Source: Opitutaceae bacterium
GTDB lineage: Bacteria > Verrucomicrobiota > Verrucomicrobiia > Opitutales > Opitutaceae
Reading direction: 5' to 3'
DNA length: 38,883 bases
Assembly: GCA_030693515.1 (NCBI GenBank)
Contig: JAUYAK010000042.1
Span: 1 to 38,883 of the forward strand
Below are positions 27,993 to 32,906 of the stretch, piece after piece. The notes beneath the pieces were generated by a model that did no database searches, was not told where the DNA came from, and was given only the letters and a program-made list of their open reading frames with translations. Position 1 is the first letter of the stretch, and each line of letters starts with the position of its first letter. Position numbers and translations under genes: made by a program.

Positions 27993-28224
27993 CGGCGTTC
28001 AGAGCACGCGGCCGGCGGCCGCGAGGGTGTGGTGGGAAAACGAAAGAGCGTTCACGAAGGCTTGGAGAAAATGCGACTAAGGCACGTGCGCCGCGCATTT
28101 CCATAAAAATTTTTCGCCGCGCGCGCCGGACAAGCAAGAGGGCCTGCGGTGCGCCGGGGATGGCTCGGCCCCGCCGGGTCAATTTCTTCTTCACACGGCG
28201 GCGGCGCGACGCCACTTGTCTCGC

Positions 28225-29541
28225 GTGCCCAGCACCGATCTCACCTTCGCCAGCCGCGACGCGCACCGCGCGTGGCTCGCCGCCCACGCCGCGCTGCCCG
28301 CCGGCTTCCGCGTGGGCGGCACGCGGTTCGACTTCATGCCGCGCGAGGCGCCCAAGCCCGCGAAGATGACACTCACGCTCCTCGCGCTCGACCAGCCGAC
28401 CACGTCGTTCGCGGCGATGTTCACGAAAAACGCCTTCCCCGGCGCGCCCATCATCGTCGGGCGCCGGCGCCTGCCCGAGCCCGCGCTCGGCGCCGTGATT
28501 ATCAACAACAAGATTTCCAACGTCTGCGCGCCCGGTGGCGTCGAGGCCTCGGAAAAAATCTGCGAGGCCACCGCGCGTCTGCTCGGTGTTGCTCCGGCGC
28601 AGGTGCTGCCGAGCTCGACTGGCGTCATCGGCTGGGGCCTGCCGGTCGATGCCATCATGGGCGCGCTGCCGCAGGCGGTCGCCACGCTGCAAAGCCAGTC
28701 GATCCTCCCCGCGGCCGAGGGCATCGTGACGACCGACCTTTATCCCAAGATCCGCCGCGCCGCCGTCGGCGCCGGCAGCATCGTGGGCATCGCCAAGGGC
28801 GCCGGCATGATCGAGCCCAACATGGCGACGATGCTCGTCTACATCCTCACCGACATCGCCGTGCCGCGCGCCGAGCTGCGCCCGATGCTCGCCCGCGCCG
28901 TCGATGCGAGCTTCAACGCCATCAGCGTGGACAGCGACACGAGCACCTCGGACACCGTCGTCGCCCTCTCCTCGGGCAAGGTGCCGTTCAACGACTGGGG
29001 CACTTTCGAGCGCGGCCTGCACCAAGTCTGCCGCGATCTCGCGGAGGATGTCGTGCGCAATGGCGAGGGCGTGCGCCACGTGATCCGCGTGACGGTGAAG
29101 AACGCCGCGAGCCTCGGCCTCGCCCGCGCGCTCGGCAAGGCGATCGTCAACGGCCCGCTCTTCAAGTGCGCCGTCGCCGGCAACGATCCCAACGTGGGCC
29201 GCCTCATCCAGGCGATCGGCAAGCATGTGGGTGCGCACGCCGCCGGCACCGACCTCTCGAAACTGAGCGCGCGCATGGGCGGCGTGGAGATTTTCGCCCA
29301 GGGTGTCTTCCAGCTCGACCCGACGAAGGAGGCCGCGCTCGTCGCGCACCTCAAGGGCGCGGAGCTCTACCAGAGCGCCCCGTCGAAGGACGGCGTCTTT
29401 GCCGCGCCCGTGGACTACCCGCCGCACGAGCGGGCCGTGGAGCTCGAGATCGACATCGGCAACGGCGCCGCCTCCGCCATCGTGCTCGGCGGCGATCTCA
29501 CGCACGAATACGTGAGCGAGAACGCGGACTACCGGAGCTGA
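28225..29541 (+). CDS. argJ: Bifunctional glutamate N-acetyltransferase/ornithine acetyltransferase
   Basis: 438 residues from the GTG at 28225 (the frame stays open to a TTG at 28216). It recycles the acetyl group from acetylornithine to glutamate. The self-cleavage site is KGAGMIEPNMAT-ML, with the nucleophile T202 by this start. SSTGVIGWGLPVD and SDTSTSDTVVALSSG are further conserved blocks, and the end (YVSENADYRS) is normal. No obvious ribosome binding site marks the start. It diverges from argB across about 230 bases that hold both promoters. Whether it is bi- or mono-functional cannot be read here. Confidence 0.96.
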   Translation: MPSTDLTFASRDAHRAWLAAHAALPAGFRVGGTRFDFMPREAPKPAKMTLTLLALDQPTTSFAAMFTKNAFPGAPIIVGRRRLPEPALGAVIINNKISNVCAPGGVEASEKICEATARLLGVAPAQVLPSSTGVIGWGLPVDAIMGALPQAVATLQSQSILPAAEGIVTTDLYPKIRRAAVGAGSIVGIAKGAGMIEPNMATMLVYILTDIAVPRAELRPMLARAVDASFNAISVDSDTSTSDTVVALSSGKVPFNDWGTFERGLHQVCRDLAEDVVRNGEGVRHVIRVTVKNAASLGLARALGKAIVNGPLFKCAVAGNDPNVGRLIQAIGKHVGAHAAGTDLSKLSARMGGVEIFAQGVFQLDPTKEAALVAHLKGAELYQSAPSKDGVFAAPVDYPPHERAVELEIDIGNGAASAIVLGGDLTHEYVSENADYRS

Positions 29542-29553
29542 GCGGCCTTCGCC

Positions 29554-30372
29554 ATGTTCTCTAGGTTTGGCAACGGACGGAAAGTTCTCGGCCGCCTCCC
29601 TGAACTTTCCGAGTGGGACGCAACTTGCCCTGATTGCGGTCACGATAACGGAAAACTGCACGAGTTGTTCTGCACCAGGGAAAGGTGTCCCTTTTGCGGC
29701 GGACAACTGATTTCCTGCAACTGCATGCCAACAGTGCTCGGACTCCGCGAGGAAGAGCGCCGTATCGTGGAAGAACACATCGACGACAGCGTCGAACCGC
29801 TGAAGCGCATCTTGGAAAACTGGCAGGAGGCGCTGAACAAGAAAGGTCGCATTCCATATCGCGCGATGCCGCTGGAGCCAACGGCCGACGGACTAATATT
29901 GGCCGCTGCTCGTGGCGCACTTCCGTTTGTTCGCAGGTTGATCGCGGAAGGCGTTCCCGTCGATGCAACCAACGACGTGAACCATACCGCACTCATGGCG
30001 GCGGCGTGGAATTCTCAAACCGCCGTCGTGACTTTTCTCCTTTCGATCGGAGCCAACGTCAACCGACGCAATGCCCATGGCTACACGCCGCTGCACTGCA
30101 GTGTCGCTACTCCGTCCGCGAAACCTGACCTGCAACGCGAGTGTGCTCGGCTTCTACTCGACCGAGGAGCCGAGGTTGCCGCGCTCGATCACGAGGGCGG
30201 CACACCGCTGATGAGCGCGGCATGGTTCGGCTGCCTGCCCGCTGTGCAGTTGCTCTTGGAGCGGGGCGCATCAGCATCGACGATGAATAAACGGGGTCAA
30301 ACGGCGGCAGATCTTGCCCAGCAGCGGGGCCACGCGACGGTCGCAAGAGTTCTCACGACTGGGCGCCCATGA
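29554..30372 (+). CDS. Zinc-ribbon plus ankyrin-repeat protein
   Basis: 272 residues. The N-terminus has several cysteine pairs (CPDCG, CTRERCPFCGG, CNC) that can hold one or two zinc ions. A helical linker follows (EEERRIVEEHIDD). Residues about 110-272 hold about five ankyrin repeats (DGLILAAARGALPFVRRLIA, HTALMAAAWNS, GYTPLHCSVATP, GGTPLMSAAWFG). There is no signal peptide, so it is probably a cytoplasmic protein-binding factor. It starts 12 bases after argJ and could be co-transcribed. GC is lower than argJ, which suggests a later arrival. Confidence 0.82.
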   Translation: MFSRFGNGRKVLGRLPELSEWDATCPDCGHDNGKLHELFCTRERCPFCGGQLISCNCMPTVLGLREEERRIVEEHIDDSVEPLKRILENWQEALNKKGRIPYRAMPLEPTADGLILAAARGALPFVRRLIAEGVPVDATNDVNHTALMAAAWNSQTAVVTFLLSIGANVNRRNAHGYTPLHCSVATPSAKPDLQRECARLLLDRGAEVAALDHEGGTPLMSAAWFGCLPAVQLLLERGASASTMNKRGQTAADLAQQRGHATVARVLTTGRP

Positions 30373-30405: not shown

Positions 30406-31320
30406 TTATCCGATTTGCGCCGCCCGGAAGCACACCACGCAATCCGATCCATCCGCCGTGCTCAGCCACCGCGGCTTCAGCGCCGCGAACTCACGATCGA
30501 TTGCCGCGCGCAGGCCGCCGACCTCGATCACGACGACGCCGTGCGGTTCGAGCCGCTCCCGCGCCTGCCGGAGAAGTTTCCGGATGATCACGAGGCCGTC
30601 GCGCCCGCCATCGTGCGCCAGCCGCGGCTCGGCGGCAAACTCCGGTGCCTGCGTGTCCACATGCGCACTCGGCTCGTAGGGCGGGTTGCTCAGGATCACG
30701 TCGTATTTCGCCGGCGGCACGGCATCGAGCACATCGCTCTCAAACAGCTTCACGCGCGCGCCGACTCCGTGCGCGGCGACATTGATCTGCGCGACTTCGA
30801 GCGCAGCGGCGGACACATCGCACGCCTCGACCCGCGCCCCCGGAAACTGGTGCGCGAGCAGAATCGCGAGGCAGCCGGAGCCGGTGCAGACATCGACGGC
30901 GCGGCGGACTTTTTTTCCCGGCGGCAGCAGGGCGGCCAGTTCGCCCGGGATGATTTCCAGAAAATAGCTGCGCGGGATAATCACGCGCTCATCGACGAAG
31001 AAGCGGTGCTCGCCCAGCCACGCCTCGCGCGTGAGGTAGGCGGCGGGGACGCGTTCGCCGATGCGGCGGCGGAAGATCTCCGCGAGCTTCGCGCCTTCGG
31101 CCGAGGTGAGTTTTTTTTCGAGCACATCCGGTTCGCTGTCGAGCGGCAGCCCCAGCCCGTGGAGAATGAGGTAGAGCGCCTCGTCGTGCGCGTCGGCGGC
31201 GACCTGGCCGAGGGCGACGCCCGTGCGGCCATATTCCGCCTCGGCCCAGCGCAGCCAGTCGCCGGGCGTGGCGAGTTTCCCAGTCCCTCCGGCCTCACGC
31301 CTGCCCGCGCCGGCGCTCAT
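30406..31320 (-). CDS. prmB: PrmB/HemK-type N5-glutamine methyltransferase
   Basis: 304 residues. An SAM-dependent methyltransferase that modifies the Gln of a GGQ-like or ribosomal target. The SAM site is VDVCTGSGCLAILLA and the catalytic NPPY motif is in VILSNPPYEP. The block FFVDERVIIPRSYFLEII is closer to the PrmB (ribosomal protein L3) branch than to PrmC, hence the symbol; this call is moderate. The start ATG at 31320 overlaps the stop of the upstream S2P-like gene as ATGA, so the two are translationally coupled. Confidence 0.88.
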   Translation of the reverse strand: MSAGAGRREAGGTGKLATPGDWLRWAEAEYGRTGVALGQVAADAHDEALYLILHGLGLPLDSEPDVLEKKLTSAEGAKLAEIFRRRIGERVPAAYLTREAWLGEHRFFVDERVIIPRSYFLEIIPGELAALLPPGKKVRRAVDVCTGSGCLAILLAHQFPGARVEACDVSAAALEVAQINVAAHGVGARVKLFESDVLDAVPPAKYDVILSNPPYEPSAHVDTQAPEFAAEPRLAHDGGRDGLVIIRKLLRQARERLEPHGVVVIEVGGLRAAIDREFAALKPRWLSTADGSDCVVCFRAAQIG

Positions 31321-31991
31321 CCCACGACGAGACTAAACAGGATCACAAACGGCGCCGCCATCACCGCCGCGCAGAGCCCGAGGAACTGCCGCACCGGCGG
31401 AAACTGGAACGCGATCAGGAGCCCGAGGCCCGCCCAGCGCGCGATCATCCCGTAGGTCTCATCGCTGATGAAGCCCCAGTAGCGCAGCAGCATGCCGCCC
31501 GGCAGCGGCGGCACCGGCAGCAGATCGAGCACCATCAGCATCGCACAGATCGACATGATGCCCAAGGTGAGCTCGCGGACCTTCATCTCGCCCGTGACGC
31601 GCAGGAGGAGGCCGCCGATTACCGCGGCCACGACGCCGAGGAGGATGCACATGCCAAAACCGGCGAACTGCACGAAGAGCTCCCCGCGGCGCGGGTTTTT
31701 GAAATAGGCGGGGTTGGTCGGCACCGGCTTGGTCCACGCGAGGAAGAAGTTGATGCGCGTGAGCTGCGGCTGGAAAAAGAGCACGCAAATCAGCGGGAGC
31801 ACCACGGTGCCAATCAGGTCCACATGCGGCGGCGGATAGAGCGTCATGCGGCCTTCGCCGCGGGGTGTCGGATCACCGAGGCGGTCGGCCAGCCAGGCCT
31901 GCGCATAGGCGCGCAGCACCAGGACGGAAAAAATCAGGAGGAAAAAAATGATGCCCGTGCGCAGTTGCTCGGGGCTGAGGCCGAAATCCAT
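31317..31991 (-). CDS. Site-2-protease-like (M50) membrane protein lacking all metal ligands
   Basis: 224 residues with about six hydrophobic segments. Overall it follows the short M50 family: WLADRLGDPTPRGEGRMTLYP, then HVDLIGTVVLPLI, then AWTKPVPTNPAYFKNPRRGEL. However, the zinc motif HEYAH is replaced by R27-A-Y-A-Q31, and the third ligand in PPLDGG is replaced by P164 (VPPLPGG). Thus both histidines, the catalytic glutamate and the aspartate are lost while the fold around them is kept. It should not be a working protease; a binding or chaperone role like that of iRhom pseudoenzymes is an inference. It is coupled to prmB by an ATGA overlap and starts 3 bases after the TPR gene. Confidence 0.88.
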   Translation of the reverse strand: MDFGLSPEQLRTGIIFFLLIFSVLVLRAYAQAWLADRLGDPTPRGEGRMTLYPPPHVDLIGTVVLPLICVLFFQPQLTRINFFLAWTKPVPTNPAYFKNPRRGELFVQFAGFGMCILLGVVAAVIGGLLLRVTGEMKVRELTLGIMSICAMLMVLDLLPVPPLPGGMLLRYWGFISDETYGMIARWAGLGLLIAFQFPPVRQFLGLCAAVMAAPFVILFSLVVG

Positions 31992-31994
31992 CCC

Positions 31995-32906
31995 TCAGTT
32001 CTTTGCCGGCGGTGCCATCTGCGCAACGAGCTTTTGTTTCTGCCCCTGGAGCTTGGGTTCGTCGACCGTGGCGAGCAGAGCCTTGGCGTGGTCCGCCTTG
32101 CCCAGCTTGAGGCAGATGTTGGCGGCGTGCAGGCGCATCGTCTGGCGCTCGATGGCGGTCGAAGCTTTTTCCTCAAGGGCGCTCCATAGTTTCAGGGCGG
32201 CGTCCCAGTCGGGTTTCTCCAGATCGTAGAACGACTCGGCGTAGCGATAGGAAAACTCGAAGCGATCGGGCGCGAGTTCGGCCGCCGTGCGGAAGGCCTC
32301 GTGCATGGCCTTGTCCAGCGTGTCGCGGGTCCACTCGGCGGCCTGGAGGAAAACGTCGCGCGCTTCCGCGAGCACCGTGCCGAGCTGGTAGTGGTAGAGC
32401 GGTTCCTTGGGCTCGAGCTTGATGGCGGCGATGAAGTAGGGCGCGGCCTGAAGGGGTTTGCCGTCCTCGGCGAGGAGGTTGCCGAGCTGGTTCTTGACGA
32501 GCGCGATGTCGGGATCGAGCTGGTTGGCCTTGAGCAGAATGGCAGCGGCTTCCTTCCGCATGTCGGTTTTGCTGAGAAAATAGCCGTAGGCGGCGAAGGC
32601 GGCGGCGAAGTCCGGGTTGTGCCGCACCAGCAGCTCGTAGTCGTGCGCGAGCGCCTGCATCTGCTGGCGGAAGGAGCCCTCGTCGAGGTTCTCACCTTGC
32701 CGGGCCGCGGTGGCGAACAGGTCGCGTTGTTGCTCCGCGAGCCGGCGGAGCGTGCGCTCGGCGAGGTTCTGGCCGGCGGGCTCGGCATCGCCGGCGTGCA
32801 GCGGGACCAGCGCAAGACCGAACAAGACCACCATGGATAACACGGATAGCAAAGATGCAGGACTGACACTGAAGCAGGCCGCTAGTTTTTTTCTTATCCG
32901 TTTCAT
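31995..32906 (-). CDS. TPR-repeat exported protein
   Basis: 303 residues with a signal-like N-terminus (MKRIRKK, then LLSVLSMVVLFGLALVPLHA). About 80-290 carry tetratricopeptide units (FAAAFAAYGYFLSKTDMRKEA, ALVKNQLGNLLAEDGKPLQA, PLYHYQLGTVLAEA). It probably acts as a periplasmic scaffold. The first 25 codons, including the basic start, lie inside an inverted-repeat element (32831-32921). A second possible start is the ATG at 32831, giving MVVLFGLALVPLHAG. The stop is 3 bases before the start of the S2P-like gene, so the three minus-strand genes form an operon. Confidence 0.82.
   Translation of the reverse strand: MKRIRKKLAACFSVSPASLLSVLSMVVLFGLALVPLHAGDAEPAGQNLAERTLRRLAEQQRDLFATAARQGENLDEGSFRQQMQALAHDYELLVRHNPDFAAAFAAYGYFLSKTDMRKEAAAILLKANQLDPDIALVKNQLGNLLAEDGKPLQAAPYFIAAIKLEPKEPLYHYQLGTVLAEARDVFLQAAEWTRDTLDKAMHEAFRTAAELAPDRFEFSYRYAESFYDLEKPDWDAALKLWSALEEKASTAIERQTMRLHAANICLKLGKADHAKALLATVDEPKLQGQKQKLVAQMAPPAKN

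Follow-up and report, generated by a model that had tools for sequence, protein, structure and literature searches.

A maintained pseudoprotease of the site-2 protease family in Opitutaceae shares its gene slot with active relatives and a Derlin-like protein

Our results show that a gene at 31317..31991 (minus strand) of the window, a stretch of 38,883 nucleotides from an Opitutaceae bacterium (contig JAUYAK010000042.1), encodes a site-2 protease (S2P) homologue that has lost its active site, and that a clade of Opitutaceae maintains this loss. The protein retains a predicted S2P fold, and its gene has a fixed place between a TPR-repeat gene and prmB. This TPR-X-prmB slot is occupied by an active S2P, by the pseudo-S2P or by an unrelated Derlin-like rhomboid-fold protein; the pseudo-S2P gene has been exchanged in and out of it, and the slot genes tend to exclude each other. 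From these patterns we infer a client-receptor mechanism: with little more than even confidence, we propose that Opitutaceae maintain the catalytically dead S2P as a receptor or adaptor for membrane clients, for which cutting is dispensable.

The open reading frame (ORF) of this M50-fold protein starts with ATG and encodes 224 residues. In alignment to active homologues, RAYAQ (residues 27–31; 31899..31913, minus strand) takes the place of the HExxH zinc-binding and catalytic motif of active M50 peptidases, with R27, A28 and Q31 aligned with H, E and H, so that two zinc ligands and the catalytic Glu are lost. Further along, DLLPVPPLPGG takes the place of NxxPxPPLDG. Here D156 to P164 (31500..31526, minus strand) replace the span from the conserved Asn of NxxP (D156) to the Asp that is the third zinc ligand (P164). 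The first-pass annotation, made from the letters of the window, had stated that all three ligands and the catalytic Glu were gone; the alignment bears this out and adds the motif Asn to the changed residues. The zinc-ligand residues are those of the M50 family; a profile search of Protein Data Bank (PDB) sequences showed the same ligand motif in S2Ps of known structure.

That the S2P fold is intact, as the annotation also held, agrees with the AlphaFold2 model, which is confident (predicted local distance difference test score, pLDDT, 92.5) and nearest to S2Ps, with S2P entries as the top four VIA rows. A Foldseek search with this model gave a best E of only 1.7. A profile of the slot protein that included active rows matches mjS2P at E 4e-8 and 7w6y at E 7e-8, and the S2P tree places the window's clade among active rows, which indicates common ancestry with active S2Ps. 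The window protein scores 11.4 bits against Pfam M50 (PF02163), under the gathering cut-off of 27.2. As to the second, active S2P paralogue that the annotation had suggested looking for, the same genome carries two further M50 genes of other subfamilies with intact motifs (HELGH/LDGG and HEFGH/MDGG), which by eye appear RseP-like and CBS-type, respectively. The search for relatives gave one match only in this genome, by which a close active paralogue from the pseudo-S2P's own subfamily was rejected.

S2P relatives were found in 94 of 252 genomes of the family Opitutaceae, and relatives with the same replacements occur across the family, by which a variant confined to one genome was rejected. 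By motif, 61 of these genomes are active-type, 26 pseudo and 3 partial, one has a paralogue of another subfamily only, and the matches in three (G187, G216, G270) were unread for motifs. These counts were made after removal of HEA[AS]H paralogues (L113–L121) and duplicates (L055–L061). The 25 full-length pseudo rows form a single clade with support 100/100, nested among active S2Ps on a long stem branch (0.63) and covering 8 genus codes; a 179-residue row at a contig edge (L051) was kept out of the trees, and its genome (G255) is still counted as pseudo. R27, Q31, D156 and P164 are identical in 25/25 of these rows, so that RxxxQ and P164, whose conservation the annotation had proposed to check, are fully conserved, while residue 28 is A in 23 and T in 2. 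P75, P91, P100, G173 and G188 are also invariant. Active rows carry H, E, H and D in 72/72 cases and N in 71/72; this contrast with the pseudo rows holds by definition, because the motifs served to class the rows. How uniform the replacements are among the pseudo rows, as read from the alignment, is not built in by this classing.

By the Nei-Gojobori method, the ratio of nonsynonymous to synonymous substitution rates (dN/dS) was 0.015–0.309 in 12 pseudo pairs, one of which has a near-saturated dS of 1.75, compared to 0.046–0.237 in 10 active pairs. None of the listed matches contains an internal stop. The pseudo-S2P is therefore under purifying selection, and the fully dead clade has a single origin. 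A decaying gene under relaxed selection would fit the Pfam score under the cut-off and the long stem of the clade, but it is at odds with the low dN/dS, the lack of stops in those matches, the invariant replacements and the retained coupling of the gene cluster. We regard decay as having almost no chance of being right, and for the pseudo clade the dN/dS and conservation results reject it. The view of a maintained pseudoprotease, already put forward in the annotation, has thus been strengthened.

Partially altered sites occur as well. Within the family these are R-A-Q (L012), R-E-H (L017) and R-E-R (L092), all retaining the third-ligand Asp. In other families of the order, the 12 loci read comprise 11 of active type and one partial site (L021; R-E-Q, Asp retained). 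All four branch apart from the main pseudo clade in the S2P tree and may be intermediate stages. A class-wide search with a profile of pseudo rows only matched 79 of 286 genomes. Motifs were read in 21 new loci in addition to those read earlier, and no pseudo-type site was found among these 21 loci outside the family, all of which have HExxH and PPLDG.

At pseudo loci, the TPR gene lies upstream in 25/26 cases and prmB downstream in 24/26, and both prmB misses are contig ends; at active-type loci of the family the corresponding numbers are 52/61 and 54/61. Across the S2P loci of the family, the flanking proteins are 56–100% (prmB) and 33–100% (TPR) identical to those of the window. Of the 27 genomes in the window's genus, 21 lack an S2P relative. 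In 18 of those S2P-less genomes the region upstream of prmB was read, and all 18 have another multi-helix gene there, preceded by a TPR gene in 17. When prmB loci of the genus were chosen regardless of slot content, 24/24 of those reaching far enough upstream held either an S2P (6) or the Derlin-like gene (18).

The Derlin-like gene is present in 159 of the 252 family genomes; examples are L141:666-1478(+), L126 and L143, plus 42 further loci. The majority of 39 scanned members match neither Pfam DER1 nor Rhomboid, even at E 1; DER1 is matched at E up to 1 by 6/39 (best 1.5e-9). L143 scores above the DER1 cut-off, while L141 lacks a DER1 match; the model of L141 (pLDDT 86.6) has human Derlin-1 and GlpG as its nearest structures. 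The WR motif is kept (W57 R58, invariant in 39 rows). GxSG occurs in 0/45 rows, and there is no conserved His in the sixth transmembrane segment, where a His at positions 175–196 is found in 1/45 rows, that of L141 itself. A rhomboid fold with the WR motif and without the catalytic Ser-His pair hence characterizes the slot alternative, not the window gene. The C-terminus is a Cys/His tail resembling a zinc module; a PDB sequence search with the Derlin-like profile gave a best E of 0.17, to zinc-ribbon ribosomal proteins matching this tail. Taken by its motifs, the slot alternative would be a Derlin-like rhomboid pseudoprotease, probably inactive.

S2P and Derlin-like genes largely avoid each other. 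Among the 252 family genomes, 11 have both, 81 only an S2P, 148 only the Derlin-like gene and 12 neither, a tally that excludes two S2P matches that are not slot genes. With genera as strata, which does not wholly remove relatedness, this exclusion gives z -7.65 (12 informative genera, p 2e-14). The pseudo-S2P and the slot's Derlin-like gene occur together in 0/26 genomes (z -5.17, 4 informative genera, p 2.3e-7). Active S2P and Derlin-like genes adjoin in five genomes, G257 (L106), G138 (L107), G128 (L075), G052 (L015) and G154 (L081), and these side-by-side pairs occur in both orders; they may represent an ancestral or intermediate arrangement.

The pseudo-S2P has not descended together with its neighbours. 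It requires 13 changes on the prmB tree (114 loci), 9 of them forced by starred branches, and 10 on the TPR tree (102 loci), all 10 forced; all slot labels together require 22 and 17 changes, respectively. The approximately unbiased (AU) test rejects trees in which the pseudo rows stay together (p-AU 1e-71 for prmB, 2e-41 for TPR), and with them inheritance as one clade alongside the two neighbours. These trees hold loci with an S2P or Derlin-like gene, prmB rows of at least 200 residues and 200 bits, and TPR rows of at least 120 residues. The pseudo-S2P thus forms one clade of its own but is scattered over the trees of both neighbours, which shows repeated exchange, a result that goes beyond the annotation. 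Many replacements of the slot gene have taken place, for which recombination across the flanks is the simplest explanation. An alternative explanation might be differential loss from ancestral tandem copies, but the slot's Derlin-like gene is found in no pseudo-S2P genome among the 252. L101 (G146) and L108 (G265) carry an active S2P of a different subclade, with a prmB inside or beside that of pseudo-S2P genomes, and may be cases of reverse replacement.

Conserved flanks (prmB, TPR) and frequent exchange would also be expected if the slot were a mere recombination hot spot, where homologous flanks swap any small membrane gene and exclusivity is mechanical, with no common function of the occupants. 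Unread gaps of 200–650 nt in a few clusters (e.g., L086, L096, L111, L178) weaken replies to this argument. However, all genus loci chosen regardless of slot content that reach far enough upstream hold an S2P or a Derlin-like gene. Moreover, exclusivity persists outside the family, where the Derlin-like gene sits elsewhere: of 23 order genomes listed in both searches, 10 have an S2P, 8 a strong Derlin-like match, 0 both and 5 neither. We therefore consider a mere hot spot improbable.

In the slot, the pseudo-S2P alternates with a working protease or a dead Derlin-like protease, which suggests that holding membrane proteins, and not cutting them, is a possible job. The slot protein X would be a membrane-embedded receptor that grips transmembrane segments of clients in the former substrate cleft, and either holds these clients or passes them on for processive proteolysis, most likely by FtsH. 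The TPR protein could be its partner, as its gene position suggests, and cutting would be an optional extra of the active version. R27 and Q31 at the zinc-ligand places, together with D156, probably keep the empty metal site together. The annotation had raised the possibility of a membrane client-binding factor; this remains conjecture, but it gains support from the Derlin-like rhomboid-fold protein that occupies the same slot in relatives. A bolder proposal, which we hold tentatively and rate somewhat short of even, is that the Opitutaceae slot is a bacterial counterpart of the client receptor of endoplasmic-reticulum-associated degradation (ERAD), filled by two unrelated intramembrane-protease folds (S2P and rhomboid), both catalytically dead, that displace one another through gene exchange, and that in this way a Derlin-like role has evolved on the S2P fold.

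R27, Q31 and D156 are polar and invariant at the former active site, and might instead serve a new enzyme or transporter function on the S2P fold. By eye, however, there is no new conserved catalytic set, and the other clade-specific residues are mainly Pro, Gly, Leu, Phe, Trp, Arg and Gln; we judge this very improbable. A regulatory pseudoprotease that restrains the active S2Ps of the cell (RseP-like, CBS-S2P) by substrate binding or pairing deserves somewhat more weight, although we still find it unlikely. The genome has two intact M50 genes on which it could act, and iRhoms, which restrain rhomboid signalling, provide a precedent among rhomboids (PMC3149277). Yet, Pfam M50 genes are present in 252/252 family genomes whatever the slot contains, and the genes exchanged with the pseudo-S2P encode a Derlin-like protein or an active member of its own S2P subfamily. 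Exchange with the latter disfavours an inhibitor, whose place an active enzyme would not be expected to take.

Several points weigh against a shared receptor role. Active S2P and Derlin-like genes are not strictly exclusive, as they occur together in 10/61 active-type genomes, plus G216 (motif unread). The pseudo-S2P genome G051 has a weak Derlin-like profile match (5e-4), and pseudo-S2P genomes can thus carry other rhomboid-superfamily proteins. This match is L249:522-1433(+), a separate rhomboid-like protein of 303 residues without GxSG and without the Cys/His tail; in G244, a protein with a similar match also belongs to the rhomboid family and has, by eye, a His at each of the two usual places. 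Beyond Opitutaceae, the Derlin-like gene lies beside TPR or prmB in 0/18 loci, and 10 neighbour ORFs scanned at such loci and in L220 share no common theme. Its neighbours at the order level include phosphofructokinase, MscS, S49 peptidase, FeS assembly, DNA polymerase delta and phosphoglycerate mutase genes. Many branches of the prmB tree are weak, and the bootstrap of this tree had yet to settle. Independent pairs of pseudo-S2P versus Derlin-like genes are not significant (p 0.06–0.25): of 10 pairs, 0 are the same and 3–5 opposite, and the other 5–7 do not differ in Derlin-like presence. For any S2P, the pairs are mostly 6/6 (p 0.03) or mostly 5/5 (p 0.06) opposite, a result that is partly built in because rows were picked for either gene in the slot. 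Finally, we infer the client, the partner and the FtsH contact alike.

Pseudoproteases are already known in kind, and even a pseudo-S2P has been described. Compared to the short S2Ps of Pfam M50 (mjS2P 3B4R, RseP, SpoIVFB), the window protein lacks the zinc ligands and the catalytic Glu and scores below the family's cut-off. It resembles EGY3, a pseudoprotease of plant chloroplasts, in being a conserved S2P homologue without HExxH. EGY3 is reported to be important for the levels of other proteins (PMC10978774; PMC9355673), and the second of these papers states that it occurs in plants only. The bacterial clade differs in lying in a gene cluster and being exchanged with other genes; the likeness to EGY3 comes from published descriptions, and in our S2P tree, which has no plant row, the clade stands among S2Ps of its own order. 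iRhoms, too, are inactive homologues of intramembrane proteases that have been maintained, but they have a rhomboid fold and, reportedly, ADAM17 as partner in mammals. Derlins (Der1) and YqgP share the proposed mode, a dead intramembrane-protease fold serving as receptor for membrane clients, but the window protein is no rhomboid, and the likeness concerns gene slot and supposed role only. A dead mutant of Bacillus subtilis YqgP is reported still to hand MgtE to FtsH, for which the active site must be unoccupied (PMC7231995). By analogy, YqgP would be the best precedent for the role of the slot. In the open-access literature (subscription papers and preprints were not covered), no account of a pseudo-S2P lineage in bacteria came to light, nor of an exchange between a pseudo-S2P and a bacterial Derlin-like gene in one slot.

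Why intramembrane proteases become pseudoproteases is an open question, best known from rhomboids. In bacteria, S2Ps have taken this step too, and relatives still carry partial stages (R-E-H, R-E-R, R-A-Q, Asp kept). Natural replacement by a Derlin-like gene at one locus opens a direct genetic way to ask whether selection acts on the holding of clients and not on cutting.

Downstream of the pseudo-S2P gene lies prmB (30406..31320, minus strand), encoding the ribosomal protein L3 glutamine methyltransferase (TIGR03533, 304.1 bits vs. a cut-off of 229.7). The two ORFs share 4 nt (31317-31320), in agreement with the tight coupling noted in the annotation. We know of no connection of PrmB to membrane quality control, and the coupling may be incidental. 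Upstream, a TPR-repeat protein (31995..32906, minus strand; TPR families above cut-off) ends 3 nt before the pseudo-S2P ORF; its N-terminal hydrophobic segment, noted by eye, suggests that it may be exported. On the plus strand, an ankyrin-repeat protein (29554-30372) with Cys pairs near its N-terminus starts 12 nt past argJ (28216-29541).
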